Below are positions 48 through 45,500 of a stretch of 46,632 nucleotides of DNA, piece by piece. This DNA comes from an uncultured Chitinophagaceae bacterium (GTDB taxonomy: Bacteria; Bacteroidota; Bacteroidia; Chitinophagales; Chitinophagaceae), in contig CAITVK010000034.1 in assembly GCA_903895845.1 (NCBI GenBank), positions 1 through 46,632 on the forward strand, written 5' to 3'. The notes beneath the pieces are model-generated. The model did no database searches, was not told where the DNA came from, and saw only the letters and a program-made list of their open reading frames with translations. The position numbers were made by a program, and so were the translations under genes. Within the stretch, counting starts at the first letter, position 1. The number at the start of each line of letters is the position of its first letter.

Positions 48-270
48 AAAAGAACTTATTTGAAGCTTAAAAGAACTTATTCAAGACCTAAAAGAACTTA
101 TTCAGCGTATAAAAGAAGTTATTTAAGCCTTGAAAGAACTTATTTGAAGGGTAAAAGAACTTATTCAAGACTTAAAAGAAGTTATTCAGGCTTTGAAAGA
201 AGTTATTCAGGCTTTGAAAGAAGTTATTTAAGACCTAAAAGAAATTATTTATGCTTTGAAAGAAGCGAGT
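48..270. repeat. 21-bp tandem array A, 11 units
   Basis: The core word AAAAGAACTTATT, or variants GAAAGAAGTTATT and GAAAGAACTTATT, starts at 48, 69, 90, 111, 132, 153, 174, 195, 216, 237 and 258: eleven units with spacing of exactly 21 bp. The 8-base linker between cores varies (for example CAAGACCT, TAAGCCTT, CAGGCTTT). The fifth/sixth core bases alternate between GAACTT and GAAGTT, and AACTT and AAGTT are reverse complements. The plus frame is open with a heptad K/E-R-T/S-Y-S/L-x-x, as any 21-bp repeat allows. The array lies downstream of rluE, which runs the other way towards it. Confidence 0.95.
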
Positions 271-453
271 TTTTATCCTGTGCAGCCGCTGGAAGTCCCA
301 GTTAGTGTGGCAAGAAGCGTTGGATAACCGTAGAAATGTAGAATGGGTGACTTTTAAAACCTATGAATTGAATCGTTTTCTTTGAAGTGGTGAAGTTATG
401 GGGGGAATGAGGGAAATAAAACAATAGAAGGAAGTGATTTGTAAAATATGCTT

Positions 454-559
454 GGTTTTTGCCACAAAGACACTAAGGCTCAAACTGGCACAAAGGGAAG
501 AAGGAAGAAAAAGGAATCCTTAGTGCTTCTTTCTGTTTTTGTGTCTTTGTGGCAAAAAA
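454..559. repeat. Long inverted repeat, GCCACAAAGACAC type
   Basis: The left arm (about 454-472, GTTTTTGCCACAAAGACAC) pairs almost perfectly with the right arm (541-559). The interior also pairs in part (CACTAAGG at 471-478 with CCTTAGTG at 518-525). The same arm sequence recurs at 34992-35130 and 43710-43810. It would form a long hairpin in RNA or single-stranded DNA. No protein is encoded. Function unknown. Confidence 0.85.
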
Positions 560-587
560 ATTATTACTGATTGAACAACAACAACAA

Positions 588-620
588 ACGGTCAACAACC
601 TTTTGAAGGTTGTTGACCGT
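588..620 (-). terminator. Perfect 15-bp hairpin downstream of rluE
   Basis: The arms 588-602 and 606-620 are exact reverse complements around a 3-base loop. Read on the minus strand, as the rluE transcript would be, the hairpin is followed by TTTGTTGTTGTTGTT, which is T-rich but not a pure T run. It sits 53 bases after the rluE stop. An intrinsic terminator is the likely role. Confidence 0.6.
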
Positions 621-672
621 AGCGGAACTCACATAAATAAATAATCAAAACTAATATGCTTTAACCCACTTA

Positions 673-1254
673 TTACCCAAACAACATCTTATACAGCTCT
701 TTTTGCTCCATAGCCACCATTTCGCCAGGCTGTAAATGGTCGATGGTTAGTTTTTCAATCCGGTATCTGATCAAGCGCAAAGTGGGAAAACCAACGGCGG
801 CTGTCATCCGTCTTACTTGTCTGTTTTTACCCTCTTTCAACTGTAGGTGAAACCAAGGAGCAGGTATTTCTTTTCTGAAACGAATAGGCGGATTTCTTTC
901 TGGAACGATGGGCGGCGCTTCAAAAAGACTGGCTTTGCATGGTTTCGTACGGTATTGTTTTCCATCTATATTGATGGATACCCCCTTTTGCAATTGTTCG
1001 ATAGCTTCTTTGGTAATAGCCCCATCTACCTGCACCCAATATTCCCGCTCGTGGGCAAACAACGGATTCAACAAGCGATTATTTAGTTGTTTATCATTGG
1101 TCAAAATCAATAATCCCTCACTATCATAATCCAATCGCCCAACGGGATAAACATCTTTGGGTACGTCAAAGTAATCGGCAAGGGTTTGTTTGCCCTCCAC
1201 CGCAGAAAACTGCGACAGAACCAAGTAGGGTTTGTAGATGATGTAGTAAAGCAT
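673..1254 (-). CDS. rluE: 23S rRNA pseudouridine synthase, RluE type
   Basis: This 193-aa cytoplasmic enzyme should convert a uridine of 23S rRNA to pseudouridine (U2457 in E. coli for RluE). The catalytic motif V-G-R-L-D-Y-D-S-E-G-L-L-I-L-T sits near residues 38-52, with the Asp of RLD as nucleophile. The C-terminal half shows family signatures: R-N-P-P-I-R, E-G-K-N-R-Q-V-R-R-M-T-A-A-V-G and T-L-R-L-I-R. There is no N-terminal S4 domain, as expected for RluE and unlike RsuA or RluB. The ATG at 1254 abuts an inverted repeat that starts at once upstream, so the 5' leader is made of repeat DNA. A hairpin lies downstream at 588-620. Confidence 0.88.
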   Translation of the reverse strand: MLYYIIYKPYLVLSQFSAVEGKQTLADYFDVPKDVYPVGRLDYDSEGLLILTNDKQLNNRLLNPLFAHEREYWVQVDGAITKEAIEQLQKGVSINIDGKQYRTKPCKASLFEAPPIVPERNPPIRFRKEIPAPWFHLQLKEGKNRQVRRMTAAVGFPTLRLIRYRIEKLTIDHLQPGEMVAMEQKELYKMLFG

Positions 1255-1255
1255 T

Positions 1256-1335
1256 AGTTATGAATTATGAGTGATCAGTTATGAGTTAAGAAATGAATTG
1301 TGAAGTTCATAACTCATACTTCATCACTTATTACT
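1256..1335. repeat. Inverted repeat of TTATGAGTTATGA type
   Basis: The left arm (about 1256-1295) is built from TTATGAATTATGAG and CAGTTATGAGTT words. The right arm (about 1304-1335) carries the complementary TTCATAACTCATACTTCATCACTTATTACTAAC. Pairing is imperfect but extensive. The arm touches the rluE start codon. Related arms occur at 40394-40513 and, more distantly, at 37826-37917. Confidence 0.7.
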
Positions 1336-1340
1336 AACGA

Positions 1341-1365
1341 AACAGCCTCCACGTGGGAGGCTGTT
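1341..1365 (-). terminator. Hairpin between sod and rluE
   Basis: AACAGCCTCC (1341-1350) pairs with GGAGGCTGTT (1356-1365) around a 5-base loop. On the minus strand it is followed by TCGTTAGT, only weakly T-rich. It would end the sod transcript before rluE. Strong stem, weak tail. Confidence 0.5.
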
Positions 1366-1503
1366 CCTTATATATGTAGAGTTACTATTGGGGAATAGAT
1401 GCTATTCCCACTGCAATATTAGGTTGTGATGGTATATGGCTGCGTAGTTTTTTATGCACAAATCTTTGCCAACATAAAACTTACAACTTAATACCTACAA
1501 CTA

Positions 1504-2256
1504 CTAAATGGTTTCCTCAAAGCGTTTGGTTACCACGTCCCAGTTGACTACACTCCACCAAGCTGTGATATAATCCGGGCGTTTGTTTTGATACCTCAGG
1601 TAATAAGCATGTTCCCACACATCCAATCCCAACAGCGGCGTACCCTTCAGTTCGCTTACATCCATCAAAGGATTGTCTTGGTTTGGCGTAGAACCTATTA
1701 CCAGTTTTTTGTCGCTACTAACAACCAACCAGGCCCAACCACTTCCAAAACGGGTTTTACCAGCGTCGGCAAACTTTGTTTTGAAAGCATCGAAAGAACC
1801 AAAGTCCTTTTCTATCTGCGCCAACAACTTACCTTCTGGTTTCAAAGAAGACTTAGGCGTCATACTTTGCCAAAAGAATTCATGGTTAAAATGACCACCG
1901 CCATTGTTACGCAACTTGGGTGAATACTTAGAAATCTTGCCTAGTAAACTTTCTAATGAAACAGAGCTGATATCCACCTTTTCTGCAACTACCGCTTCAT
2001 TCAAATTCTTTGCATAAGCAGCAGCGTGCTTGGTATGATGAATTTCCATCGTCATTGCATCAATAGCAACTTCCAGATCTTTGTATCCATAGGGCAATGG
2101 CTGCTGCGAATAAGGAATGTTCTTAACTAAATAACTACTTTTTTCATTGGTAATCTTTGCCAATGCAGGTATAACTGTTGCAGATAGAGCAACAGCTGCG
2201 GTTGTTTTTGCAGCGTCAGCAATAAAAGTTCTGCGACTTGTGTTCTTAGTTGACAT
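1504..2256 (-). CDS. Tat-exported Fe/Mn superoxide dismutase
   Basis: This 250-aa enzyme dismutates superoxide to oxygen and hydrogen peroxide. The first 33 residues form a Tat signal: S-R-R-T-F-I near residues 7-12, then an alanine-rich hydrophobic stretch ending in P-A-L-A. This predicts a periplasmic enzyme, unlike the usual cytoplasmic SodB/SodA. Metal ligands are visible: His73 in E-I-H-H-T-K-H, His in F-N-H-E-F-F-W-Q, and Asp plus His in L-D-V-W-E-H-A-Y-Y-L. The motif G-S-G-W-A-W-L is also present. Sequence alone does not settle Fe versus Mn. The start codon lies 5 bases after the stop of the upstream permease gene on the same strand, so the two are probably co-transcribed. Confidence 0.9.
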   Translation of the reverse strand: MSTKNTSRRTFIADAAKTTAAVALSATVIPALAKITNEKSSYLVKNIPYSQQPLPYGYKDLEVAIDAMTMEIHHTKHAAAYAKNLNEAVVAEKVDISSVSLESLLGKISKYSPKLRNNGGGHFNHEFFWQSMTPKSSLKPEGKLLAQIEKDFGSFDAFKTKFADAGKTRFGSGWAWLVVSSDKKLVIGSTPNQDNPLMDVSELKGTPLLGLDVWEHAYYLRYQNKRPDYITAWWSVVNWDVVTKRFEETI

Positions 2257-2261
2257 TTTAT

Positions 2262-3707
2262 TTATTTTAAAGATGATTTAGAAAAGCGAAAGTTACCTAT
2301 AAATCTTTTTATCGTACTAAAAATTCGGTAATAAGCCTCCGAATTAAATAATTGCGAGTCGTGCATGGCCTTATACGTCAAGAAAATACCCACCGGAATC
2401 AGCACCATTGTCGATAGCCACATCCCTTCAAAAACAGTGAGTACCGCTTCGTGGGCAAGACGTTCACCAAAAGTATTCAGCAGATGGAAGACCACAAAAA
2501 AAGCAATGGCAAAAACCAATGGCGCGCCCAAACCGCCTTTCCGGATGATGGCACCAAGCGGTGCACCAATCAAAAACAATACAAAACAAGCAACCGACAG
2601 CGTAAATTTCCGATGCCATTCTATCTTATGCGAACTCAAGGTTTTCTCCTGTCTTTTATAGTCATCCTGAATTATTGTAATAGAGGTTTTTGCACTATTT
2701 ACCTGGTTAAGGCTTCTCTCATACACAATCTGTCGTATCGAATCTGGTATTTCTGCCGCAAAAGATTTAGCCTTAATGGGCATTGGTTTTGTTTTTACCC
2801 AACCCGTGTCGGCATATTTAGTAAACTGAAAGGAAGGACTCATCTCCAAAGAAACCCGCTTGGCAAAAAAGCTGTCGTTCTTGTGCAACGAATCAATCAT
2901 CATATTCAACTGCCTGATACTAAGCATCTTTGGGTCATACTTAAAGGCGCTGTCCTGGGTGTTGTTTAGTCCAAAACTCTTCAGGTCAAATACCTTTTTA
3001 TACTGCTTAAATCCATTCCGGACAAACTCAGTATTCGCATTCATGCGCATCCCTTTTTCGGTATAACGCACCCCATCATTCATAATAAATTCCAAAAACT
3101 GTTTGTCGGGCGTTACCCGCATCACCCCGTCTTTGGCAATCAATAAGTTATCTTGCAGGTTATAGTTCCGTTCGTAAATAACAATATCATGAATGGTGCT
3201 GTCATCCTTATCCTTCTTACCCAATTTAATCACATAGCCTTCAATCTTATCATAAAATACCCCTTCTTTGATGTCGAAAGAAGGCTTTGATACGATGATA
3301 TTATACTTGATGGTCGCCAGTTTAAGCTGTGCCACCGGAATGATGTTGTTGGAAAACAGAAAGGCGATGCCACTAATAAAAAGCGTGACAATCAGCAATG
3401 GTCGCATGAAACGCAACAATGAAATGCCCGCCGATTTGATGGCTACTATCTCAAAGGTTTCTCCCAGATTTCCAAACGTCATGATGGAAGAAAGCAGTAA
3501 GGCAATGGGTAATGCCAATGGAATTACGTTGGCGGCCACATAAACAATCAATTGGAGGATGGTTAAAACATCGAGTCCTTTTCCTACTAAGTCATCAATA
3601 TATAACCAAAAAAACTGCATCACCAGTATAAACATGGCGATGAGGAAGGTGGCGATGAATGGCCCAATGAAGGATTTTATGATTAATATGTCTAATTTTT
3701 TTATCAC
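2262..3707 (-). CDS. LptF/LptG (YjgP/YjgQ) family permease
   Basis: The 481-aa inner membrane protein is a likely permease subunit of the Lpt ABC machine that lifts lipopolysaccharide from the inner membrane. The N-terminal third has membrane segments near residues 15-35, 55-75 and 100-120, with the coupling-helix-like stretch around M-T-F-G-N-L-G-E-T-F-E near residues 75-86. A large soluble periplasmic domain follows (about 125-360), then three more hydrophobic segments near 370-390, 395-415 and 425-445. This six-helix pattern split by a β-rich domain is typical of YjgP/YjgQ proteins. Whether it is the F or the G paralogue cannot be told. A TAnnTTTG element lies 41 bases upstream. The superoxide dismutase gene follows almost directly. 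Confidence 0.85.
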   Translation of the reverse strand: MIKKLDILIIKSFIGPFIATFLIAMFILVMQFFWLYIDDLVGKGLDVLTILQLIVYVAANVIPLALPIALLLSSIMTFGNLGETFEIVAIKSAGISLLRFMRPLLIVTLFISGIAFLFSNNIIPVAQLKLATIKYNIIVSKPSFDIKEGVFYDKIEGYVIKLGKKDKDDSTIHDIVIYERNYNLQDNLLIAKDGVMRVTPDKQFLEFIMNDGVRYTEKGMRMNANTEFVRNGFKQYKKVFDLKSFGLNNTQDSAFKYDPKMLSIRQLNMMIDSLHKNDSFFAKRVSLEMSPSFQFTKYADTGWVKTKPMPIKAKSFAAEIPDSIRQIVYERSLNQVNSAKTSITIIQDDYKRQEKTLSSHKIEWHRKFTLSVACFVLFLIGAPLGAIIRKGGLGAPLVFAIAFFVVFHLLNTFGERLAHEAVLTVFEGMWLSTMVLIPVGIFLTYKAMHDSQLFNSEAYYRIFSTIKRFIGNFRFSKSSLK

Positions 3708-3747
3708 CTGATGCTATTACAACTACTATTTATGAAAATGAATGCTC

Positions 3748-3755
3748 CAAAAGTA
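3748..3755 (-). promoter_or_regulatory. Candidate -7 element for the Lpt permease
   Basis: On the minus strand this reads TACTTTTG, matching the Bacteroidota -7 consensus TAnnTTTG, and lies 41 bases before the ATG at 3707. I see no TTG at the usual -33 distance, so support is partial. Confidence 0.35.
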
Positions 3756-3826
3756 AAGGATTAGTGAAATGAATGGGATTTGAGTTTGAAGAGAGGGATA
3801 ATTTACCATCCCAGAATGATTAAAGG

Positions 3827-3973
3827 TTTACCCGCAGTCTTAGAGGGTACACCCAGAAGGATTAATTGTCTACCCGCAAACAATTTGGGTGTACCCAGAA
3901 CCCTTGCGGGTGTACCCGGAAAGACTAACTGTCTACCCGGAAGCACTGATTGTCTACCCTGAGAAGAATCGGG
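3827..3973. repeat. 21-bp tandem array B, 7 units
   Basis: The word TNTACCC (TTTACCC, TACACCC, TCTACCC or TGTACCC) starts at 3827, 3848, 3869, 3890, 3911, 3932 and 3953: spacing exactly 21 bp. A looser unit lies at 3802. The rest of each unit varies, with recurring GGAAG and ATTGTC pieces. GGGTACACCC (3845-3854) and GGGTGTACCC (3887-3896, 3908-3917) are reverse complements, so the array contains its core in both orientations. It sits between two divergent promoters candidates. Confidence 0.93.
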
Positions 3974-4080
3974 ACAGATTGAAATGTTCTGAAAGCTCAT
4001 AGTATATGATATTTAATTACGGAAATACCTCAATTAAGAAGGATAAATTTTCAATGTACGCACAGAATATGGTAGAATAG

Positions 4081-4088
4081 TATATTTG
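4081..4088 (+). promoter_or_regulatory. Candidate -7 element for fabG
   Basis: TATATTTG matches TAnnTTTG and lies 23 bases before the fabG ATG at 4112. No clear TTG at -33 is seen. Confidence 0.4.
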
Positions 4089-4111
4089 ACCCGTCTTAAT
4101 TAGTACTTTTT

Positions 4112-4867: not shown

Positions 4868-4891
4868 GAACGAGCAGAAAATATGTTCAAT

Positions 4892-4925: not shown

Positions 4926-4947
4926 GTTTTATGATGAATGTGATTAT

Positions 4948-8628: not shown

Positions 8629-8670
8629 AGTCGTCTATATTAACCTAAGAGAACAATAAATAATTTTTTT

Positions 8671-11437: not shown

Positions 11438-13990
11438 ATGAAAATGATTAGAATAAGTTGCTTAGCCTTAGCGGGTCTGATAATTTCAATTCATAGTTTC
11501 TCCCAATCTATCCCCGATATCTTTAAGTATTTGGCCAATGATACCCTCGCTGCCAATGACCCTCGTTTGATGGAGCAACCCAAGCGTAAGTTTACTGCCG
11601 ATGAAGCTTTGGATAACAAGCTTAAATGGGCTAATCCATACCAAGAAACATTGGTGCCTAACAGCGAAGGCTTTGATTATAGCAAGTTGGGTAAAGTACC
11701 TGCTACGGGTGTTCATCCGCGCATCTTTACTTCACCCGATGAGTTTGGTGCTATCAAAATGCGGTTAGAGAATACAAAGATGGGTAAGCAATTATTGGCT
11801 TTGGCAAATGATGCCCTTGCCAAATTGCATAGCAGTAACTATTATGCAATCCTTAAAACAAGAGAACCAATTGCTTCGGATGGTGTAGCCCCAAAGGAGA
11901 TAGCAAACTTATTGGCTATCCAAGGCTTGTTGGCTCAATTGAATAATGATAAGTCTTTGCAAGCTGAGACTGGCACCGTTGCAGCCAACTATCTTAGAAA
12001 GGTTTTTAGAGATATAGATTCTACACCTCAAAACCCTGCTAAGCTATTGCAAGTAAAAGAGCCGTTGTATAGCAGCGGCGAGATTGCTAAACTGTTCGAC
12101 TTTACGGCTGCGGGAATGACAGCTACCGATAAGAAATTCTTTGTCGATTACTATACAAAAGCCACTTATGGCAAGTATGGTCTGGGCATGGAATTGCCAC
12201 ATCATTGGCGCAGATGGAATCATATTGCCATGTCTATTTGTTATCCTTTGTCCATATTAGCTATTGAAAACGAGAAGGGATACGACAAGCGCATCTTCGA
12301 GCGTGGCAAGGATGTGGTGAGCGATTATCTTACCTATTCCTACACTGCAAAGGGGATGAGTTCGGAAGGTATCGTTTACACTTTTGGTCAGTTCCCAAAT
12401 GATATGTTGGCCATGACCGCAATCGCCCGAAGGGACAAGACCTATAACACCTTTACCAATCCACATTTCCGTGCAATACCCGATTGGTTAATCAATTCAA
12501 TGAATCCAAATCCTGCTGCGTTGTGGAGTTCGCATGGAGATACAGGTACCACTTCTGAAATCCCTTGGTTGATGATGATGATCATGAAGTATTTCTTCCC
12601 TACCGACGCCAAGATTGATTATGTATATGCCAATTCCCTCCAAAAGGAAATTAAACAAGTGCCTGATGTGGCCGCTTTTGTGTTTTGTACCGACCCCAAT
12701 AAAACCGCTGCCGACTACAACGGGGTGCCTCCTGTGGCAATGCCGCTTACCTATTTCGAACCAACAAGGGGCAGTCTGATTGCCCGCAACAAGTGGGACA
12801 AGAACGGCATTCAGTTTCAGTTTGATGCACGTCATGATATGATGTACCAATCGCACGATCATTCCGACAGGGGTAGTTTTATGTTAGCGGCTAATGGTAG
12901 AGTGTGGGTAACGGATGGTTGGAGAAGTACTGAAAGCAAATACCATTCTGTGGTTACGATTGATGGACACGGACAAGGATACTTTGCTACACCCGCTACA
13001 TGGAACAACTATTTAGATAAGCCCGAAGCTACTTTTGGTACTATTGATGCCAAGTATCCCTATAGTTGGAGTTGGCTGAAATCTGCCGTAGGCGATATAA
13101 TGACTGGCAAACAAGTAGAACCGCAATGGCGCGATGGGGTGTATGCGCACACTGCAAGTAACCTGAAACGCTACTATCCGGGTGTGCTGCCCGAGCGCGA
13201 TCCGTTGCGTAAGGTGGCTGATTTTTATAATGGAACGATGGAAACAAACCCTTTGATGTGGGCGGAGGATACCTGGCCCATGCGTTTGAAGAATTATCCG
13301 GTGGAATATGCTTTCCGCACCGCAGGATTGGTGAAGGGCAAGCACGATTATGTGTTGATTGTAGATGATATTAAAAAGGATGATAAGGAACATCTGTACG
13401 AATTTGCGATGCCGATGCAGTTGGATGTGGAGGTAGTTTCTATTAAGCAACTGATAGATGTAAAGCAAGAATCTGGTGCTTTGAATCTTGGCTTCAATTC
13501 TTTTTCTGATGCAAGAACGCAAGGTGAATACGATGTGGTGCTGGGCGATAAACGAATGAAGCGCAATATGGCTGAGGTTGAAGGTTTGGGCGGCGTATTG
13601 AGTGCTGGTAAGTTTACCCCACAAAAAGGTGATCCACAATTGTTGGTGAGGGTATTGGAAAGCACCGAATCTGCCATCCCCAATATGGAACCTAACCCTC
13701 GTTTGGAAACCTTCGAGAACATAAAGACGGAGGATATGCACCAGTTTTATCTGCGTACTATGGATATTGCGAAGCGTCTAGTGCTTCCTTCCCGTTCTGT
13801 TGAACCAAACTTTAAGGTATTGTTGTTCCCTTACTTACACGGAGAAGAAACGCCGAAGACGTTGTGGAATGCCGACAAAACAGTGTTGACAGTTACATGG
13901 AAAGACCAGAAAGATGTATTCACTTTTATAAAAGCTGCGGATGGACATACGATAACTAAGTTGGTGCGGGATGGGAAAGAGATTTTTTAA
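11438..13990 (+). CDS. Exported heparinase II/III-like polysaccharide lyase
   Basis: The 850-aa protein begins with a signal peptide (about residues 1-22, ending H-S-F-S-Q). The first half is helical and resembles the (α/α) toroid of alginate/heparin lyases; L-P-H-H-W-R-R-W-N-H at about 250-260 matches the conserved active-site region. The heparinase II/III-like domain follows with Q-S-H-D-H-S-D-R-G-S-F at about residue 470-480 and V-T-D-G-W-R just after. Such enzymes cleave uronate-containing polysaccharides by β-elimination. The substrate cannot be read from sequence. It is a paralogue of the 16952-19525 gene, clearest at the C-terminus (K-V-L-L-F-P-Y...P-K-T-L-W-N). A TonB-dependent receptor gene lies downstream on the same strand. 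Confidence 0.82.
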   Translation: MKMIRISCLALAGLIISIHSFSQSIPDIFKYLANDTLAANDPRLMEQPKRKFTADEALDNKLKWANPYQETLVPNSEGFDYSKLGKVPATGVHPRIFTSPDEFGAIKMRLENTKMGKQLLALANDALAKLHSSNYYAILKTREPIASDGVAPKEIANLLAIQGLLAQLNNDKSLQAETGTVAANYLRKVFRDIDSTPQNPAKLLQVKEPLYSSGEIAKLFDFTAAGMTATDKKFFVDYYTKATYGKYGLGMELPHHWRRWNHIAMSICYPLSILAIENEKGYDKRIFERGKDVVSDYLTYSYTAKGMSSEGIVYTFGQFPNDMLAMTAIARRDKTYNTFTNPHFRAIPDWLINSMNPNPAALWSSHGDTGTTSEIPWLMMMIMKYFFPTDAKIDYVYANSLQKEIKQVPDVAAFVFCTDPNKTAADYNGVPPVAMPLTYFEPTRGSLIARNKWDKNGIQFQFDARHDMMYQSHDHSDRGSFMLAANGRVWVTDGWRSTESKYHSVVTIDGHGQGYFATPATWNNYLDKPEATFGTIDAKYPYSWSWLKSAVGDIMTGKQVEPQWRDGVYAHTASNLKRYYPGVLPERDPLRKVADFYNGTMETNPLMWAEDTWPMRLKNYPVEYAFRTAGLVKGKHDYVLIVDDIKKDDKEHLYEFAMPMQLDVEVVSIKQLIDVKQESGALNLGFNSFSDARTQGEYDVVLGDKRMKRNMAEVEGLGGVLSAGKFTPQKGDPQLLVRVLESTESAIPNMEPNPRLETFENIKTEDMHQFYLRTMDIAKRLVLPSRSVEPNFKVLLFPYLHGEETPKTLWNADKTVLTVTWKDQKDVFTFIKAADGHTITKLVRDGKEIF

Positions 13991-14073
13991 TTGATAATTA
14001 ATAATTGACAATTTAGAGTGTTGCTACGGGGCTTAGTAGACGTAAAGAAGCACTTGGAAAGCTTTGTTAGATT

Positions 14074-14114: not shown

Positions 14115-14153
14115 AATGGATAATTACAATTGATTTTCAAAACTAAAAAATAG

Positions 14154-14445
14154 TTTGCTGGCAGTAACAAACTACTTATGGGGCAAATAAGTGTGTTTGC
14201 TGCCAACATAGTTCTATATGGACAGTAAGCAAGACTATTTGCTGCCAATATAGTTCTACACTGCCAGCAAATAAGCGTGTTTGCTGGCAACATAGTTCTG
14301 CACTGACAGCAAGCAAGCGTGTTTGCTGCCAACATAGTTCTATATGGACAGTAAGTAAGACTATTTGCTGGCAACATAGTTCTATGTTGCCAGCAAATTA
14401 CGTTTTTGACACAAAAGATAGAACTATGTTGGCAGCAAATAATTT
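14154..14445. repeat. 21/42-bp tandem array C with inverted halves
   Basis: TTTGCTG[CG]C starts at 14154, 14196, 14238, 14280, 14322 and 14364: six 42-bp units with exact spacing. Each 42-bp unit is two 21-bp halves. The first half reads TTTGCTGCCAACATAGTTCT(A); the second (TATGGACAGTAAGCAAGACT or CACTGCCAGCAAATAAGCGT) carries the partial reverse complement of the first. The last unit makes a perfect 17-bp-arm palindrome at about 14363-14398. A full inverted copy of the first half follows at about 14418-14438. A transcript would fold into strong hairpins. The array lies 238 bases upstream of the receptor start. Confidence 0.93.
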
Positions 14446-14682
14446 TATTCCCCCCTCAATAGTAGTATTTATATTGGGGTTAATCGGCTCTATCCATATA
14501 GTTGATAAATTATAGTATCTACAAATAATCAATATTCTCATCAGCCATACCTTCCAACTTTTTATAAAGACATTAATCACCCTAAACAGCTTCTTTTCCG
14601 CATCGCGGTGGTTGCTTTTCCCGATTCTGGTAGTATCTCATCTTTCATTCCTACACTTTTGCGCCCAACAAAAAATGGAGGA

Positions 14683-20139: not shown

Positions 20140-20345
20140 AATTGGAGAAAAAATCATTTTCTCTTTAGAAAAATTCGTTTTTTCACCAGAAAATTTGTTT
20201 TTCTCTCTCGAGAAATTCCTTTTCTCTGAAGAGCGAACCATTTTTTTGAAAGAAAAAATGATTATTTCTTCGGAAAAAACATTCCCACTGCGGAAATAAT
20301 GATTAATTCTTTAGGGAAAATGATTTTTTCTTTCGGAAAATTCAT
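20140..20345. repeat. 21-bp tandem array D, about 10 units
   Basis: A GAAAA or GAGAAA word falls at 20147, 20168, 20189, 20210, 20231, 20252 and 20273 with exact 21-bp spacing, then at 20293, 20316 and 20336. The slips at 20293 and 20316 cancel, so 20273 to 20336 is exactly 3 x 21. Each unit pairs a TTTTCTC-like half with a GAGAAAA-like half (for example ATTTTCTCTTTAGAAAAAT), an internal dyad. The plus frame is open with the heptad E-K-x-x-F-S-x. Confidence 0.9.
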
Positions 20346-20744
20346 TTCTACACACCCATAAATTGTAAAATGTAAGCTTTTAGTGAAGATGAGGCTAAGC
20401 AAAAACAGACTATCTATCGTTGTTCTGTTTCTTTCGACTTGGTAGAACTACGGGAATGAATATTCTTTGAAGATTTATTATTTGGAGAAGGGGCATTTTT
20501 ATTAAACCCTTAAATAGATGCGTAGTTTCTCTATTGGATATGTGTGTACGTATCTATTTAAAACAAACAAATTCTGTTTATACTGATAAACCCATATATT
20601 CGTTACTGAAACTGATGCGTGTAAAGGGTTTGAGAGATAAAGTATAAAATTCCTTTTTTGCTGTTTATAGTGTCAATACAAGAGTTCTGCGTCACTTTAA
20701 GCCGCAGTAATTTTAAAAAAATATTCACTGAAATAAAGACTTTA

Positions 20745-34991: not shown

Positions 34992-35130
34992 TTTGCCACG
35001 AAGACACAAAGGCAGAAAGAAGCACAAAGAAATAAATGGGGAGGAAGGAAAATACTTTGATTTTCCTTCCTTCTTAATTAATTGGCAAATCTTTGTGCTT
35101 CTTTCTGCCTTTCTGCCTTTGTGGCAAAAT
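34992..35130. repeat. Long inverted repeat, GCCACAAAGACAC type
   Basis: The left arm 34992-35030 and the right arm 35092-35130 pair over 39 positions with about three mismatches. A second, smaller hairpin (GGAAGGAAAAT with ATTTTCCTTCC, about 35043-35071) fills the centre. The arm begins 3 bases after the dehydrogenase stop and ends 21 bases before the gldF start. The arm word TTTGCCACGAAGACACAAAG is shared with 454-559 and 43710-43810. Confidence 0.92.
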
Positions 35131-35879: not shown

Positions 35880-36036
35880 GATTGTTAGCGATTAATCTTT
35901 TTTCGTTAGCAATTAGAAACATTCCGTTTGCGGAATAAAAGTTTTTGTTTGCGATTAAGAATATTCCTCTAGCAATTAAGAATTTTTTGTTTGCGGAAAG
36001 TTTTATTTTGTATGCGGAATAAAATATTCCGCAAGA
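35880..36036. repeat. 21-bp tandem array E, 7 units, between gldF and gldG
   Basis: The word GCGATTAA, GCAATTA or GCGGAATA starts at 35888, 35909, 35930, 35951, 35972, 35993 and 36014: spacing exactly 21 bp. GCGGAATA also occurs as its complement TATTCCGC at the end (36014-36032 is a perfect 8-bp hairpin), and ATTCCGTTTGCGGAAT near 35921 is a second dyad. The minus frame is open with the heptad S/I-A-N-x-x-x-L; no plus frame of the array is open throughout. It fills almost the whole 192-bp gap of the gldF-gldG operon. Confidence 0.94.
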
Positions 36037-36066: not shown

Positions 36067-37815
36067 ATGAGTAGACTATTAAATTATAAATACACTTGGG
36101 CAATATTGACGGCTTTGTTCATCGCCTTGGTGTACGCTTCTTCTTTTTTAGATTATCGGATAGACCTCACTGCCGAGAAGCGTTTCAGCATCAATCCATC
36201 AACAAAAAAACTCTTTAATCAAGTGGATGATGTAGTGAAAGTGCAGGTATTTCTTACGGGTGATTTACCGGCTGATTATAAAAAACTAAGTCTTGCCACT
36301 AAAGATTTTTTGGAAGAGATGAAGCAGGTTTCTAATAATAAAATAGAAATCAGTTTCGAGAAACCCGGCGACGATTTAAAGGATGATACCGCAAAAGGTA
36401 TGCTCTATGATAGCCTTGCCCGCTTGGGTGTGGTGTTTGAAAGAAGTGAGGTTTCCGAAAAAAGCAACGAAAAAGAAACCAATCAGCTCATTATTCCTTC
36501 GGCCTTGGTAAGCTATAAAGACAAGCGACCAATTGCTGTTGATTTGCGCAGCAGTAAGAAAATTTATAAGCAATATAATGTCATAAACGACAATCCGCAG
36601 GAAGATGTGGAAGCTACCCGCAATGCTGCCGAGGCTTTATTGGAGTTTAAATTTGCCAATGCCATCGATAAACTCACGCGCACTTCGGTTCCGGTTATTG
36701 CGTACACCATTGGTAATGGCGAACCCATTGATAAAACCGTGAACGACCTGGGGGAAAGCCTGCGGACTGAATATCAATTGGGCATTTTCGATTTAAAAGC
36801 CGCCTATCCCGATGCGTCTAAGATCAATGCCTTATTAATCGTAAAACCAACTACGGCATTTAGCGATGAGGATAAGCTAAAACTCGATCAGTATGTGATG
36901 AATGGAGGCAAGATTATTTGGTGTATTGATAAACTGCACGCCGAACTGGATAGCCTGATGCGTAGCAAATCGGAATATACGGCTTATGACAGAGGGGTAA
37001 ATGTGGATGATATTCTGTTTAGATATGGGGTTCGTATCAACGGCGATTTATTGCAGGATTTAAACTGTGCAAAGTTACCGTTGGTTATTGGCTATAATCC
37101 CGACAAAAGTCCTCGGATGCAACGGGTGCCTTGGCCTTATTATCCCTTGCTATCCTCCATAAACAATAACCCTATCTCCAAAAATCTGGATAAAGTATTG
37201 CCCATTTTTCCTTCTAGTATCGATACAGTAAAGGCAGAAGGCATCAATAAAACAATCCTTTTGGCTAGCGATACCAATAGTCGTGTGTTGGGTTCGCCAG
37301 CTTTGGTAAGCGTAAACAGTGTGAAGACGGAGGAAGATTTTAGAAGTTTCACCCGAAGCTATGTACCTGTTGCAGTGCTGTTGGAAGGAAAGTTTAAGTC
37401 TTTATTTGCCAATAGATTAACCTCAGTTGTAACCGATTCTGTCCAAAAAGCAACTGGTAAGCCTTTTTTGGCATCTGGTAATATCGAAAGCAAGCAGATC
37501 GTGATGTCGGATGCGGATATGGTTACAAATGCCATTTCTGAAACCACGGGGCCACTATCGATGGGCGAACTTCCATTTGATAGCTATCGGTTTGCAAACA
37601 GGGAGTTTCTGTTAAACTGCGTGGATTATCTGGTTAGTAACAATGGAATCTTCGCTACACGCAACAAAGAGTTCACCCTGCGGTTATTAGATAAGAAAAA
37701 AGTAGAAGCCGAGCGGACTGAATGGCAATTCATAAATATTGTTGCCCCCATCGCTTTGCTGATATTGATAGGATTATTGTTGCAGTGGCAACGGAAAAGA
37801 AAATACGCATTTTAA
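36067..37815 (+). CDS. gldG: Gliding motility ABC transporter component GldG
   Basis: The 582-aa protein has an N-terminal membrane helix (about residues 10-28), a large periplasmic domain and a C-terminal helix (about 555-575) before the basic end W-Q-R-K-R-K-Y. The start of the soluble part, D-L-T-A-E-K-R-F-S-I-N-P-S-T-K-K-L, and the stretch V-Q-V-F-L-T-G-D-L-P-A-D are characteristic of GldG/ABC-2 accessory domain proteins. It partners GldF (directly upstream) and an ATPase, not in this window. The start at 36067 follows 21-bp array E by 30 bases. Confidence 0.9.
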   Translation: MSRLLNYKYTWAILTALFIALVYASSFLDYRIDLTAEKRFSINPSTKKLFNQVDDVVKVQVFLTGDLPADYKKLSLATKDFLEEMKQVSNNKIEISFEKPGDDLKDDTAKGMLYDSLARLGVVFERSEVSEKSNEKETNQLIIPSALVSYKDKRPIAVDLRSSKKIYKQYNVINDNPQEDVEATRNAAEALLEFKFANAIDKLTRTSVPVIAYTIGNGEPIDKTVNDLGESLRTEYQLGIFDLKAAYPDASKINALLIVKPTTAFSDEDKLKLDQYVMNGGKIIWCIDKLHAELDSLMRSKSEYTAYDRGVNVDDILFRYGVRINGDLLQDLNCAKLPLVIGYNPDKSPRMQRVPWPYYPLLSSINNNPISKNLDKVLPIFPSSIDTVKAEGINKTILLASDTNSRVLGSPALVSVNSVKTEEDFRSFTRSYVPVAVLLEGKFKSLFANRLTSVVTDSVQKATGKPFLASGNIESKQIVMSDADMVTNAISETTGPLSMGELPFDSYRFANREFLLNCVDYLVSNNGIFATRNKEFTLRLLDKKKVEAERTEWQFINIVAPIALLILIGLLLQWQRKRKYAF

Positions 37816-37825
37816 AACCAGTGGT

Positions 37826-37917
37826 AAGTCATAAGTGGTAAGTAGTAAGTAAAGAACCCTTTACATTCTATTTTCCTCCACTTACGACTTACAACTTACG
37901 ACTATTGACTTATGACT
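37826..37917. repeat. Inverted repeat overlapping the murF-alr start
   Basis: The left arm (about 37826-37853) carries AAGTCATAAGTGGTAAGTAG; the right arm (about 37878-37917) carries CACTTACGACTTACAACTTACG and GACTTATGACTAAT. The arms are imperfect reverse complements around AAGAACCC and TTTTCC. The ATG of murF-alr at 37912 lies inside the right arm. Confidence 0.75.
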
Positions 37918-40389: not shown

Positions 40390-40393
40390 GGCA

Positions 40394-40513
40394 AGTTATG
40401 AGATATGAGTTATGAATGATGAGTTAAAAAAAGCCCTTGAAGGAAAATCTTCAAGGGCTTTATTAATATTATTTGCTTAACACTTATAACTCATCATTCA
40501 TAACTCATAACTA
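40394..40513. repeat. Nested inverted repeat of TTATGAGTTATGA type
   Basis: The outer left arm (about 40394-40425) is AGTTATGAGATATGAGTTAT and continuing; the right arm (about 40486-40513) is its near-complement. Both arms repeat TTATGA/TCATAA words. The terminator at 40429-40462 lies in the centre. Confidence 0.85.
40429..40462. terminator. Terminator between murF-alr and the 40519 gene
   Basis: AAAGCCCTTGAAG pairs with CTTCAAGGGCTTT around GAAAAT, with A and T tracts on the two sides. It serves convergent genes from both directions. Confidence 0.88.
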
Positions 40514-40518
40514 ACCGC

Positions 40519-40986: not shown

Positions 40987-41084
40987 GATTGTTAATTTAA
41001 TTGTGGGTACTTATGCAAGTAGTGTTCCAAACTTACTTAAAGATTTATAAAAATTCCTTTGCTAACGTATGACTTAAAACTAGT

Positions 41085-41315: not shown

Positions 41316-41333
41316 TCCAAAAAATTTGAGGCT

Positions 41334-41341
41334 CAAAGATA
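41334..41341 (-). promoter_or_regulatory. Candidate -7 element for the CxxC protein
   Basis: On the minus strand this reads TATCTTTG, matching TAnnTTTG, 18 bases before the ATG at 41315. No TTG is seen at the -33 distance. Confidence 0.35.
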
Positions 41342-41349
41342 GAATACAA

Positions 41350-41420
41350 GTAATTAACGATTAAAGTTTAGTGATTAATCCGGTTCACTAATCATAAAAC
41401 GTTAATCAGTAAACATTAAC
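41350..41420. repeat. Imperfect inverted repeat between plsC and the CxxC gene
   Basis: TAATTAACGATTAAAGTTTA with GTGATTAATC pairs loosely with GTTCACTAATC and ACGTTAATCAGTAAACATTAAC. It ends at the plsC stop and could act in termination. Pairing is weaker than in the other inverted repeats. Confidence 0.45.
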
Positions 41421-42186
41421 TGTGTTGCACATAAAAATCTACCATCGTCGTATATACTTTTTGCTTCAGGGCTTCAATGGTCATATCTTCTGGATCTATA
41501 GGTGGCAGAAAGTGCATCTCTAGTTTGGTGGGTAATAAAAAAAGCGTCTCATGAATGGGACAAGCCTTCTTTGTACCTAAAATTACACACGGAATAATGG
41601 GAGTTTTGGTATCTCTCGACAGCTTAAAAGCCCCATCTTGAAACTTTGCCATCGGTAAATCTGTTTTATTTCTTGTCCCCTCTGGAAAAATACACATGTG
41701 AAACCCTTTATTTAGCGAGGCTTTCATCAAATCGAAGCTTTTCTTTCTACTAGCCACACTATCTCGGTTTACTAATACTGAACCACGTGCATAGAACCAT
41801 CCAAAAAGGGGTACTTTGGCAAAACTATCCTTTGCTATTGTCTGATTGGGGCCCGGTACAAACGGACACAACAAAGGCACATCCAACATCGCATTATGAT
41901 TAGCTGTAACTATATAGGTAGTGCCTTTTTTAAAATTTTCTTTGCCATAAACTTTCAACGGGGAGAGTATCAGGTACAGCCAAGTGGCATTCCAAGCCTT
42001 TGAAACGAGTATAAACCACCACATTCCCTTCGAATCTTTTACCAATTTGGTAGCCATCGAAGGAATAAAGATGATTAAAAAGGTTATTGCAAAAGTTACA
42101 ACACCCCATATAGCCCAGATCCTCGCAAAAACGAGTGTGAATAAATTGTATTTCTTTCTTTTCGGTGTCAGTATCGCTTCGCTCAT
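41416..42186 (-). CDS. plsC: 1-acylglycerol-3-phosphate acyltransferase (PlsC family)
   Basis: This 256-aa inner membrane enzyme should acylate lysophosphatidic acid at position 2 in phospholipid synthesis. The H-x4-D motif is in A-N-H-N-A-M-L-D-V-P and the second motif in F-P-E-G-T-R-N-K; a loop R-G-S-V-L-V-N-R-D lies between. One or two hydrophobic segments lie near residues 15-65. The frame is open to 42243, but the extra 19 codons are encoded by an inverted repeat (42212-42292), so M-S-E-A-I-L at 42186 is chosen. Family members can also acylate other lipids, such as ornithine lipids. Confidence 0.85.
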   Translation of the reverse strand: MSEAILTPKRKKYNLFTLVFARIWAIWGVVTFAITFLIIFIPSMATKLVKDSKGMWWFILVSKAWNATWLYLILSPLKVYGKENFKKGTTYIVTANHNAMLDVPLLCPFVPGPNQTIAKDSFAKVPLFGWFYARGSVLVNRDSVASRKKSFDLMKASLNKGFHMCIFPEGTRNKTDLPMAKFQDGAFKLSRDTKTPIIPCVILGTKKACPIHETLFLLPTKLEMHFLPPIDPEDMTIEALKQKVYTTMVDFYVQHS

Positions 42187-42211
42187 ACTATTATCAATTT
42201 TATTTTCTCTT

Positions 42212-42292
42212 TTAACACATAGAAACATAGGGACATAGAACACATAGCCTTTATTTCTATGCTTCCTATGAATCTATGTTTCTATGTGTTAA
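42212..42292. repeat. Inverted repeat, CACATAGAAACATAG type
   Basis: TTAACACATAGAAACATAG (42212-42230) pairs perfectly with CTATGTTTCTATGTGTTAA (42274-42292). Inner segments (GGACATAGAACACATAG and CTATGCTTCCTATG) pair partly. It fills the space between ung and plsC and resembles the GCCACAAAGACAC elements in size and position. Confidence 0.9.
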
Positions 42293-42346
42293 TTTTTTCA
42301 TTTCTCATTTGCTTCAATATCCCCCTTTAGGGGTTAGGGGTTCTTT

Positions 42347-43018
42347 CTATATCATCCAATCTATCACTTCTTGCCCTTGTTTTGCCAACAAAGCATTTGC
42401 CCTACTAAAATGTTTACACCCGAAAAAGCCATTATACGCACTCAACGGAGATGGATGTGCTGCTTTCAGTACATGATGTTTTGTTTCATCAATCAATACC
42501 TGCTTCTCTTGTGCAAATTTGCCCCAAAGTAAAAATATTACACCCGTTTTTTCGTCAGAAATTTTTTTAATCACCGCATTGGTAAAGTCCATCCAACCTA
42601 TTTTGGCATGACTAGCAGGCTCATTTGCCCGTACGGTAAGCACTGCATTCAATAAAAGTACCCCTTGCATTGCCCATTCGGTAAGATTGCCCGAAGATGG
42701 TATCGGCATCCCAATATCTGTATTCAATTCTTTATAAATATTTACCAGAGAAGGCGGGGGCGGCACACCATCGGGTACGCTGAAACTTAATCCCATTGCC
42801 TGACCCGGATTATGATAAGGATCCTGACCCAATATCACCAGTTTTACCTTATCAAAAGGCGTTTTGTCAAAAGCATTAAAGATGAGTCCTCCAGGAGGAT
42901 ATATTGTTGCCTTGGTAGCACGCTCTGTTTTAAGATGTGTGACAACTTGTAGAAAATAAGGCTTGCTAAACTCATCTTGCAGCACTGTTTTCCAGCTATC
43001 TTCTATTTTCACATCCAT
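42347..43018 (-). CDS. ung: Uracil-DNA glycosylase, family 1
   Basis: The 223-aa enzyme removes uracil from DNA to start base-excision repair. The water-activating loop G-Q-D-P-Y-H-N-P-G-Q-A-M-G-L-S-F-S-V-P sits near residues 63-81 with the catalytic Asp. L-L-L-N-A-V-L-T-V-R is at about 116-125, and the DNA-binding loop H-P-S-P-L-S-A-Y at about 188-195 with the catalytic His. Length is typical. It is probably the first gene of its own transcript, with the acpH stop 87 bases upstream. Confidence 0.96.
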   Translation of the reverse strand: MDVKIEDSWKTVLQDEFSKPYFLQVVTHLKTERATKATIYPPGGLIFNAFDKTPFDKVKLVILGQDPYHNPGQAMGLSFSVPDGVPPPPSLVNIYKELNTDIGMPIPSSGNLTEWAMQGVLLLNAVLTVRANEPASHAKIGWMDFTNAVIKKISDEKTGVIFLLWGKFAQEKQVLIDETKHHVLKAAHPSPLSAYNGFFGCKHFSRANALLAKQGQEVIDWMI

Positions 43019-43104
43019 ATAGAAACTTTTTTAGTAGCAACGAAAATATCAATATTTAACGCTCAAAACAGCAAATTGAACTTTTGGCATATTCATCAGG
43101 GACA

Positions 43105-43692
43105 TTAGATTGTGCCCAGGTACGCAATTGTAAACTCTTTTAATTGAGGAAAGAATATTTTGTACAACTGTTGCATTGCTTCATAATTCTCTTCCCAAAG
43201 CTTAAAACATTCCGCGGCGGAAGAGAGATAGGTTGCGCGGCGGGCAATGTTGGCAAAACTTCTTTCTATACCCCAAGCAAACTGGTAGTTATACAGCCAA
43301 TTATTCTGTTTCATATAAGGAAACACTTTTATGAAGTTTTCTGGAAGCCACTCTTGCTGTGCTTCCAGAATTTGATACGTGCTTTCTGCAAAATTTTTTA
43401 AGTCATCAGTAGTTGCAAAGCTGCTTGTGTCGAATGCCAGAAAATGATCGAAGGCAACATCCACAAAAGCCCCCGAATACAATCCAACAGCAGGTTTCAG
43501 GTATTGTTTAGCCTGACGAACAGCGGTGTGATTGTCTGTAAAACTATCAATTGCGCGATGAAGTTGTATCCCTTTTTGAATAGGCAAAGGATAGTCGTAT
43601 TGCTTTTTTCCTTTGATAAAATCGCTGATCATATTACCCACTACAACTTCGGGTTGATTGAAGGAAAGATACGCGTGGGCTAAGTAATTCAT
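43105..43692 (-). CDS. acpH: Acyl-carrier-protein phosphodiesterase family protein (AcpH/DUF479)
   Basis: The 195-aa protein begins M-N-Y-L-A-H-A-Y-L-S, then G-N-M-I-S-D-F-I-K-G and I-Q-L-H-R-A-I-D-S-F-T-D-N-H. These are the metal-binding His/Asp pattern of the AcpH (YajB, HD-like) family. V-D-V-A-F-D-H-F-L-A follows. E. coli AcpH removes the phosphopantetheine arm from acyl carrier protein; the physiological role is unclear. The frame is open nine codons upstream to 43719, but that part lies in inverted-repeat DNA and the family begins at the M-N-Y-L-A-H methionine. Confidence 0.82.
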   Translation of the reverse strand: MNYLAHAYLSFNQPEVVVGNMISDFIKGKKQYDYPLPIQKGIQLHRAIDSFTDNHTAVRQAKQYLKPAVGLYSGAFVDVAFDHFLAFDTSSFATTDDLKNFAESTYQILEAQQEWLPENFIKVFPYMKQNNWLYNYQFAWGIERSFANIARRATYLSSAAECFKLWEENYEAMQQLYKIFFPQLKEFTIAYLGTI

Positions 43693-43709
43693 GGATTGAA
43701 GATAGGAGA

Positions 43710-43810
43710 GTTTCGCCACAAAGACGCAAAGGCTCTAAGGAACACAAAGAAGGAAAGGCAGAAATAAGCTTTAAGTGCTTCTTTCTGTCTTAGTGTCCCT
43801 GTGGCGAAAC
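43710..43810. repeat. Long inverted repeat, GCCACAAAGACAC type
   Basis: GTTTCGCCACAAAGACGCAA (43710 on) pairs with the right arm ending TGTCCCTGTGGCGAAAC (to 43810), with a few mismatches. The centre is partly paired. It lies exactly between the truA stop (43813) and the acpH start (43692). Confidence 0.88.
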
Positions 43811-43812
43811 CC

Positions 43813-44544
43813 TTATTCTAGGTAAGTTACTTTTACTAAAAACAATCCTTGTGCGGGTGTGTTGAAGTTTGCTTTTGTACAATCTTTGGCTTCTATTATT
43901 TGTTTAAAATCATTTTGGCTAATCAATCCCCTGCCTAATTTTAGCATCGTTCCCACCAGCCCTCTAACCATTCCCCGCAAAAAACGATTCGCCTTTACCT
44001 CATATACCAAGCAATCATTTTCATAGTACCATTTAGAAACAACAATGTCGCACAAAAATGTTTTTACTTGGGTATTCCGCTTTGAGAATGTTGTGAAGTC
44101 GGCGTAGGTGAGCAACACATTGGCAGCTTGCTGTAATGCTTCCATATCTAAATTGTATGGATAATACCAAGCAGTCTCGGTTAAAAAAGGGTTTCTATCC
44201 CTTGTTATATAATATTTATACTGGCGATGTGTAGCACTAAACCTAGCGTGCTTGTCAGGCTCAACAAGAAATATTTGTTTAATCACGATGTCGTGTGGCA
44301 ATACTGCATTTAGGTTATACACCTGTTTTAGATTGAGTTCTGTTTCGGTATCCAAGTGAAAGAAGTTCTGCAAAGCATGTACGCCTGCATCTGTTCGGGA
44401 CGAACAGGTGAGTTGAAAATCTTGTTTGTAAATTGTTTGTAAGGCCCCCTCAACTTTGGATTGTATGGTTTCGGCATTGTCCTGAGCTTGAAAACCGCTG
44501 TAGCGTGTGCCTTTGTAGGCGACTTCAATAAAATAACGAAGCAT
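43813..44544 (-). CDS. truA: tRNA pseudouridine(38-40) synthase TruA
   Basis: The 243-aa enzyme modifies uridines 38-40 of the tRNA anticodon arm. The catalytic motif S-S-R-T-D-A-G-V-H-A-L is at about residues 48-58 with the Asp nucleophile. Y-K-G-T-R-Y-S-G-F-Q near the start and R-F-L-R-G-M-V-R-G-L-V-G-T near 183-195 are also family signatures. The gene starts 3 bases after the stop of the DUF4476 gene on the same strand, so the two are one operon. An inverted repeat lies right after its stop. Confidence 0.95.
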   Translation of the reverse strand: MLRYFIEVAYKGTRYSGFQAQDNAETIQSKVEGALQTIYKQDFQLTCSSRTDAGVHALQNFFHLDTETELNLKQVYNLNAVLPHDIVIKQIFLVEPDKHARFSATHRQYKYYITRDRNPFLTETAWYYPYNLDMEALQQAANVLLTYADFTTFSKRNTQVKTFLCDIVVSKWYYENDCLVYEVKANRFLRGMVRGLVGTMLKLGRGLISQNDFKQIIEAKDCTKANFNTPAQGLFLVKVTYLE

Positions 44545-44547
44545 CGG

Positions 44548-45267
44548 TTAGAGCGTATTTCTAAATTGTTTTTTAATAATAGGATCGCTTAACTGCCCCT
44601 CCAAAGTACCAAAGTTATTTCCGTCATATATGCTTTGCCTTGCAGCCAAAAAGAAACCAAGCTTATTTTTGTCGGAGGGTATCAATTTGCTCAGGTTCTT
44701 TATTTCTTCGGTAGAAAAACATCTTTGTGCAAAGGTTGCTTCGGCGGTGGCAATCATCCCTTCTTCGGTGGTAGCCTGCTCCATTTGCTTGTGAAGTAGC
44801 TTATAATCTTCGTCTGTGGCAATAATACATTTAGGCGATTGTTTCAATTTATTAGTCAGGGGAGGTGTTGTATCAATATCTAGGCTTGGTACCCTACTTG
44901 CAAGTGGTTTTTCTATTGATTGTAGCGGAGCAATGGTGGCAAAGGTTTGCAAATTCATTAAATCGAACGTATTTTCCTTCGATCTCCGAAGGGTATATCC
45001 TAAATCCTGATTCTTAATGGAAAGTGTGAAGTGTTGCTCAGGATATTTTCCTCTTACAAAACCAATTTCGGCATCATACACTCCGTTGGGCATCTGGGGA
45101 ATAGTAAGGAATCCATTGATGGACGAGCTATAATTAATCTTACCATCAATCAATACATAAAAAGGCTCACGAGCCTCGGATTCTATGTAAACAAAAAAGG
45201 TTTGCTGCGCACCCGCTTTGATGGATAATGTTGCAAAAAGAAGAAAAGCAAGTAAGAATCTGTTCAT
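44548..45267 (-). CDS. Exported DUF4476 protein
   Basis: The 239-aa protein has a signal peptide (M-N-R-F-L-L-A-F-L-L...ending K-A-G-A-Q). The next 90 residues look like a β-sandwich (Y-V-L-I-D-G-K-I-N-Y; G-V-Y-D-A-E-I-G-F). The C-terminal 90 residues match DUF4476: a helical domain with D-E-D-Y-K-L-L, A-E-A-T-F-A-Q-R-C-F-S-T-E-E and L-P/L-G-F-F-L-A-A-R. Function is unknown. The frame stays open to 45480 through 21-bp array F. That longer start would give a repeat-derived N-terminus and skip the signal peptide, and a good promoter lies just upstream of 45267. Confidence 0.8.
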   Translation of the reverse strand: MNRFLLAFLLFATLSIKAGAQQTFFVYIESEAREPFYVLIDGKINYSSSINGFLTIPQMPNGVYDAEIGFVRGKYPEQHFTLSIKNQDLGYTLRRSKENTFDLMNLQTFATIAPLQSIEKPLASRVPSLDIDTTPPLTNKLKQSPKCIIATDEDYKLLHKQMEQATTEEGMIATAEATFAQRCFSTEEIKNLSKLIPSDKNKLGFFLAARQSIYDGNNFGTLEGQLSDPIIKKQFRNTL

Positions 45268-45290
45268 CTCAAATCGATATTCTGTTTTGA

Positions 45291-45323
45291 CAAACATAAG
45301 ACTTTTCATTTCTTCGTTTGCAA
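45291..45323 (-). promoter_or_regulatory. Bacteroidota-type promoter for the DUF4476-truA operon
   Basis: On the minus strand TTG (45323-45321) and TATGTTTG (45298-45291) match the -33 and -7 elements with a 22-base spacer. The predicted leader is short, about 17 bases before the ATG at 45267. This supports that start. Confidence 0.55.
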
Positions 45324-45410
45324 TTAATAAACCAAAACCTATCGTATAATGAGCTTGAATAACTCTTTTGCCATAACTAACAGGTAATCTGCCCCCTTTT
45401 ACAAAAGCTT

Positions 45411-45500
45411 TGTACACCCATACAAGGCCTTTGTACATCCGTACAGAAGTTCTGTACGGAGATACAGAAACCTTGTACACCCGTGCAAATTTGTATTAAA
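45411..45500. repeat. 21-bp tandem array F, 4 units
   Basis: TGTACA or TGTACG starts at 45411, 45432, 45453 and 45474: spacing exactly 21 bp. A partial fifth unit lies at 45492, three bases short. CCGTACAGAA and TTCTGTACGG form one perfect 21-bp palindrome at 45439-45459. The minus frame is open with the heptad F-C-x-x-V-Q-x. It lies between comEC and the DUF4476 gene, 88 bases upstream of the DUF4476 promoter. Confidence 0.88.

Follow-up and report, generated by a model that had tools for sequence, protein, structure and literature searches.

Several kinds of bacterial repeat resemble, each in part, the sequences described here. Plasmid iterons and phased operator arrays have a step of about two helical turns, with dyads or direct repeats on one face of the helix, and iterons consist of one sequence recognized by one initiator. 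Integron attC sites keep their structure while their sequence varies. Repetitive extragenic palindromic (REP) sequences, bacterial interspersed mosaic elements (BIMEs) and REP doublets forming hairpins (REPINs), found in E. coli and Pseudomonas, are intergenic, palindromic, present in hundreds of copies per genome and sometimes tandem; the placement of REP doublets in extragenic DNA has been described as random (PMC3116915). A-tract periodicity is a helix-phased pattern linked to chromosome packing, and is described, in connection with nucleoid-associated proteins, as a diffuse 10-11-bp signal (PMC3940949). We analyzed a stretch of 46,632 bp (the window), which is one contig (CAITVK010000034.1) of the draft genome of an uncultured Chitinophagaceae bacterium (GCA_903895845.1; 4.01 Mb in 138 contigs, hereafter G000), and found that its six intergenic tandem arrays belong to a class defined by a fixed 21-bp step rather than by sequence. 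In what follows, L-numbers denote sampled stretches or loci, and other G-numbers denote related genomes.

The arrays, for which strand is not applicable, lie at positions 45..265 (A), 3810..3967 (B), 14153..14449 (C), 20140..20347 (D), 35880..36036 (E) and 45400..45495 (F). Array A has about 10.5 units of 21 bp with the core TTAAAAGAACTTATT; B has seven units with the core TACCC, between an lptF-like gene (minus strand) and an SDR gene (plus strand); C, upstream of a TonB receptor gene, is built of 42-bp units containing a long dyad, TTTGCTGCC...GGACAGCAA; D has about ten units with the dyad GAGAAAA...TTTTCTC; E, flanked by ABC2-membrane and ABC_transp_aux genes that we take to be gldF and gldG, has seven units; and F has four to five units, each of the form TACA.......TGTA. 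An earlier note, made by reading the window alone, had placed six arrays here, and both lag identity and a detector of periodic segments (described below) recover them. Its claim of an exact 21-bp period holds for five of the six: in A, B, D, E and F, lag identity tops at 21, 42 and 63, with within-array values at lag 21 of 0.72, 0.54, 0.58, 0.53 and 0.53, respectively. The unit of array C is 42 bp, not 21, with an identity of 0.69 at lag 42 only; it is also 42 bp in the sister species G001. Tandem Repeats Finder (TRF), at a minimum score of 30, reported A, C, D and part of B and missed E and F.

The class differs from each of the helix-phased or structure-keeping systems above. Unlike iterons, it comprises about 100 arrays in our sample, with many unit families. 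The likeness to attC lies in structure that is kept while sequence varies, but attC sites are not tandem 21-bp repeats. In contrast to A-tract periodicity, whole 21-bp units repeat, and lags 10-11 are depressed inside the arrays.

We measured periodicity across the source genome in 60 stretches plus the window, a total of 1,131,726 bp or 28% of the genome; results for G000 refer to this sample unless stated otherwise. Intergenic lag identity peaks at 21, 42, 63, 84, 105, 126, 147 and 168 (z from 19.3 down to 5.0), with further peaks at 7 and 14 and at very short lags of 2-4. Among 86 noncoding arrays with a period of at least 10, the period is an exact multiple of 21 in 75, one base off in 11 and anything else in none; the 75 exact-multiple arrays make up 8.3% of intergenic sequence. 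Arrays within open reading frames include other periods, one of 60 and one of 102. A detector based on lags P, 2P and 3P, run on 1,110,976 bp with five small contigs excluded, gave 93 segments at P = 21, whereas each of 14 other periods in the range 15-33 gave 0-3; at P = 28 it gave 12, which we attribute to 7-bp arrays. When the 42- and 63-bp forms were added there were 105 arrays in 1.11 Mb, all six of the window among them, which corresponds by extrapolation to about 380 arrays per genome. Because shuffling 731,726 bp in 3-mer blocks produced only three arrays, all of period 5, and because the control periods gave so few segments, we conclude that the 21-bp arrays are not due to chance. The earlier note had allowed that the step might be an accident of one window: the sampled lag spectrum shows the excess at 21 and its multiples, and noncoding arrays of period at least 10 do not come in many other periods, although a second class, of 7 bp, does exist (17 arrays in the sample).

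The 7-bp class numbers 103 arrays in the larger G000 contigs and occurs also in loci of other named relatives; in the window, 7/14-bp arrays of the TTATGAA type lie at 1258-1304, 13988-14013, 37820-37903 and 40394-40512. High-scoring arrays at L011:14589-14835 and L026:8982-9431 have units of 43 and 64 bp, that is, multiples of 21 off by one, and three loci from other Bacteroidetes (L070, L090 and L093) carry arrays of 45-bp period.

The 21-bp arrays are dispersed over the chromosome, and in G000 they recur about every 10 kb with a regularity that is a new observation, beyond the reach of a single-window reading. Eleven contigs or stretches, each 40 kb or longer, give 83 neighbor distances; the mean spacing is 10,022 bp and the coefficient of variation (CV) is 0.530, compared with 0.895 ± 0.085 for random intergenic gaps; none of 2,000 simulations reached the observed value. 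Only 13 distances are shorter than 5 kb, where 33.6 would be expected. The over-regular spacing survives when the analysis is limited to gaps of at least 100 bp, and when it is limited to strong arrays, and it is not shared by the 7-bp arrays (CV 1.134 vs 0.978 ± 0.099). In G006, 31 distances have a CV of 0.651 vs 0.893 (P = 0.02), with 4 below 5 kb where 10.9 are expected and 3 below 3 kb where 6.6 are expected (P = 0.05).

The class is restricted to a clade. The closest named relatives, as judged by the protein encoded at 36067-37815, are metagenome-assembled genomes of Chitinophagaceae, at 94-95% identity. The sister species G001, G010, G002, G003, G004, G011 and G009 have 67-150 arrays per Mb, G006 has 34 arrays in 400 kb and G007 has 4 in 80 kb; for named relatives outside the array-bearing group we found one array in 739 kb (43 loci, all around one gene). 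The sequence of G005 (39 kb) and of G008 (43 kb) yielded no array against about four expected in each, an absence that is not firm. G012 was set aside because control periods fired there too and Ns occur in three of the six stretches sampled from it.

Within the clade, arrays tend to persist in place. At conserved adjacent gene pairs, an array was present in both genomes in 10 cases, in G000 only in 11, in the relative only in 5 and in neither in 132, an association with an odds ratio of 24 (p = 4e-7); 8 of the 10 shared sites come from G001 and G010, and few sites are common to more distant species. In 24 locus comparisons, two rows of which represent one subject and one of which was matched via a repeated flank, 17 subjects had an array and three sites were clearly empty (under 100 bp). 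Of 10 cases in which both gaps hold an array, 8 have gap lengths that differ by a multiple of 21 to within one base. If only differences of at least 5 are counted, this is true of 7 of 9 such gaps compared with 9 of 51 array-free gaps, the nine pairs being not all independent, with G001 and G010 nearly identical at some loci. When gap lengths are taken from the flanking gene ends, 21-multiple differences are found in 8 of 13 vs 8 of 30.

Individual loci suggest how the units change. Over array B the alignment to G001 is ungapped at 66.7% identity (86% in the left half, 47% in the right), and TACCC has become TGCCC in successive right-hand units. Because the 73 bp adjoining the array outside are also only 47% identical, the fast change is not limited to the array itself. 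In G010 the array B gap holds a different unit. The array E gap contains a 21-bp array with another unit, of the ACTGCATGCAGT type, in G001 and G010, and no array at threshold in G002, G003 and G004. At the array A locus in G010 the units are AAACAACTGTTTT, and the last unit is still like the G000 sequence. The units of L010:10408 and of window 35880 differ in G000, but their orthologues in G001 and G010 are alike in carrying a unit of the ACTTCATGCAGT / ACTGCATGCAGT type. Relative to the flanks, 11 of 16 comparisons have the dyad axis at the same position to within half a bp; several of the comparisons have a unit family or a subject in common. The displacement of the axis, in half-bp, is 0-1 for A, L010:10408 and E, 2 for B in G010, 4 for L010:1143, and 9 for both L021 in G004 and L015 in G001. 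The orthologous gaps, together with the lag spectrum, support the proposal of the earlier note that spacing is kept while sequence drifts: as far as the sequences compared here indicate, the 21-bp register is retained while unit letters drift or are replaced.

Clustering 75 arrays by unit similarity gave 39 clusters, of which 16 have several members and 23 are singletons; the largest, A/T-rich clusters may be partly chance merges. The description of the units as unrelated in sequence, also from the earlier note, is thus apt for dozens of families, but array A belongs to a dispersed family that other contigs carry as well, and the array B unit is similar to that at L024:11035. Dyads are frequent: 31 of 67 arrays had one at p ≤ 0.05 in a first test, and in a second 44 of 132 beat all 40 column permutations, compared with 3.2 expected (mean z 1.7). 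The mean pattern over the 132 arrays has G/C on the dyad axis and A/T at ±2-5, but it is faint, and a strong universal motif, hinted at in such averages, is nearly lost once unit families are collapsed. Units at L010:1143-1318 and L025:11657-11814 seem to be flipped in place with the 21-bp register kept, and at lag 21 complement-type changes exceed other transversions (0.110 vs 0.073).

The arrays therefore share with REPs and BIMEs an intergenic location, a high copy number (105 in 1.11 Mb) and, in part (44 of 132), palindromic structure. REPs fall into a few sequence groups shared genome-wide, whereas the 21-bp arrays combine free sequence with a fixed step and over-regular placement, and their 16 multi-member clusters and 23 singletons contain no one palindromic sequence conserved throughout the genome. 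We infer that the arrays work like BIMEs but are not BIMEs. No description of such arrays was present among the literature matches listed, which cover open-licence PubMed Central only and are weak evidence of absence, and we know of no family that groups sequence-unrelated arrays by period and spacing. Because neither a known family nor a paper among these matches does so, we call the class categorically new.

Array A adjoins a repeated flank (256..417, plus strand), an element that is also found beside arrays with different units. Among the matches listed it recurs at L015:3139-3300, L033:1955-2073 and L010:17727-17828, and the arrays neighboring the last two copies belong to one unit family. 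By eye, the element resembles the C-terminal part of a putative HNH-type protein. We considered whether a single element carries all arrays and rejected this: within the sampled 28% of the genome, 102 of 150 flanks hold no repeat, 48 hold one of any kind, and one flank element stands beside different units. Contigs C51 and C57 (reverse strand) begin with a sequence identical to window positions 1-131, which places a repeat at the assembly break inside array A. A dispersed inverted repeat, GCCACAAAGACAC...GTGTCTTTGTGGC, at 458-556 has many matches genome-wide, in the window at 34992-35029, 35091-35129 and 43711-43817, and a short palindrome around CAACCTTTTGAAGGTTG at 585-620 has exact or near-exact copies on many contigs.

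Our preferred explanation, which we put forward tentatively, is that the arrays are helically phased scaffolds for a weakly sequence-specific architectural protein and anchor chromosome domains. Each array would be a DNA scaffold in which some 4-13 units, often dyad-symmetric, follow one another at an exact two-turn step of 21 bp and all face the same side of the DNA. A dimeric architectural protein that makes few demands on sequence would bind the units side by side, and avidity over the whole array, that is, cooperative binding, would replace sequence specificity; unit sequence could therefore drift and homogenize, while phase-breaking indels would be selected against. The arrays would probably anchor chromosome loops or supercoil domains, a role suggested for BIMEs in E. 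coli. We favor a phased nucleoprotein scaffold because the two-turn phase, the dyads, the freedom of sequence, the persistence in place and the regular recurrence all fit it, where regular recurrence as a mark of domain boundaries is our own expectation. Protein binding is also the best of the three options in the earlier note, to judge from the sequence. The array spacing in G000 resembles the size, about 10 kb, of supercoil domains in enteric bacteria (PMC3420936); a role as supercoil barriers has been proposed for BIMEs (PMC6907758, PMC3116915). A bolder version, which we consider rather doubtful, is a genus-level chromosome code written in spacing, not letters: about 380 phased dyad arrays some 10 kb apart, with register and place under selection and one protein reading phase and dyad shape, would partition the chromosome into domains.

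Several observations weigh against the scaffold explanation. For E. coli, domain sizes of 10-400 kb are given, and the placement of barriers is commonly regarded as random (PMC6907758). In the first dyad test 36 of 67 arrays had no significant dyad, and in the second 88 of 132 had no top-ranking one; collapsing the arrays to 75 families leaves little of the shared motif (z 2.8, no position above 0.18 bit). The G000 dyad is not significant in A, L010:10408 or E, where the kept axis rests on the dyad of the sister species. Folding of L021:8980 is no better than that of shuffles, and there is little sign of compensatory change within arrays (17 of the 26 double changes are paired, z 0.9). The spacing signal is weak in seven other species with short contigs: the 24 distances available, from six of them, include 7 below 3 kb vs 8.2 expected (P = 0.36) and 8 below 5 kb vs 12.8 (P = 0.02), and in G009:C1 five arrays stand 1.5-2.4 kb apart, clustered within about 8 kb. 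Array E lies within a likely operon, an unusual position for a strong barrier. Arrays are mildly over-represented in divergent gaps (26 of 105 vs 64 of 447, P = 0.012, under slightly different gap rules), which could hint at a promoter role. Finally, none of the HU-HIG, Y1 transposase and reverse-transcriptase families tracks the arrays among the 16-24 genomes searched; HU-HIG, a candidate clade-specific binder, was rejected as such because all 16 genomes searched have it, whether or not they have arrays.

The main rival, which we regard as somewhat unlikely, is that the arrays are selfish or neutral tandem palindromes. An old founder would have spread and now be drifting, with slippage and exchange homogenizing the units, hairpin-templated repair keeping the dyads and the period surviving as a relic. 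Such a history would account for concerted change within arrays with a lagging end unit (A in G010), for unit families common to several loci, for gain or loss between species (the L024:7198 array is missing in G001 and G010) and for units resembling in-place inversions (L025:11657 and L010:1143). It also fits the folding of single-stranded DNA, in which 12 of 16 arrays, chosen by hand, reached z ≤ -2; the remaining four include C and E. It is harder to reconcile with a period that has not spread although turnover of the unit sequence has produced dozens of families, or with the lack of a repeat in most flanks (102 of 150) within the sampled part of the genome. Over-regular spacing, moreover, is unexpected of neutral repeats, and the 7-bp repeats of the same genome are without it.

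We judge it improbable that the arrays are operators for many transcription factors, each array or family having its own dimeric regulator. The units are dyads of the size of transcription factor operators and are family-specific, their concerted change could follow a changing regulator, and the mild enrichment in divergent gaps points the same way; it came from a later count, a first one of promoter or terminator placement having looked like background. However, 10 occupied gaps lie between convergent genes. Also against this reading are the number of unit clusters, 39 for the 75 arrays from 28% of a single genome, and the regular 10-kb spacing. Ten proteins encoded beside arrays B-F were scanned: none matched a regulator family, and two, at C and D, matched no family.

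Still less probable is a structured RNA, another option of the earlier note, in which tandem hairpins in transcripts would serve stability or processing. The units can form hairpins, and 54 of 90 occupied gaps are co-directional. However, mismatches in sense-strand dyads show no G.U excess (46 G.U vs 56 A.C, from 1,011 cells in 24 arrays), RNA hairpins do not need an exact 21-nt step, and a search of the window against Rfam at the gathering threshold gave no match. The third option of that note, a copying process with a fixed step, fares no better: there is no RVT_1 match in G000, which disfavors copying by reverse transcriptase, and the arrays compared drift and change concertedly in a fixed register. 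Coding heptad repeats were also rejected, with an open frame in 62 of 75 arrays vs 61.1 expected by column permutation.

Least likely, and already weakened, is a REP/BIME-type element moved by a transposase such as RAYT/Y1: the arrays are intergenic palindromes in hundreds per genome and one repeated flank adjoins several of them, but they have no sequence in common, most flanks are free of repeats within the sample, and Y1_Tnp, found in 20 of 24 genomes whether array-bearing or not, has copy numbers that do not follow the arrays (2 in G000, 1 in G010 and 7 in G005, with no array in 39 kb).

Repeat classes are normally defined by sequence, and a class set by period, dyad and chromosomal spacing would escape homology-based annotation. 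Related species offer natural experiments in the gain, loss and unit change of arrays at orthologous sites. If the arrays do set domain boundaries, what fixes the supercoil domains of bacteria would become testable from sequence.

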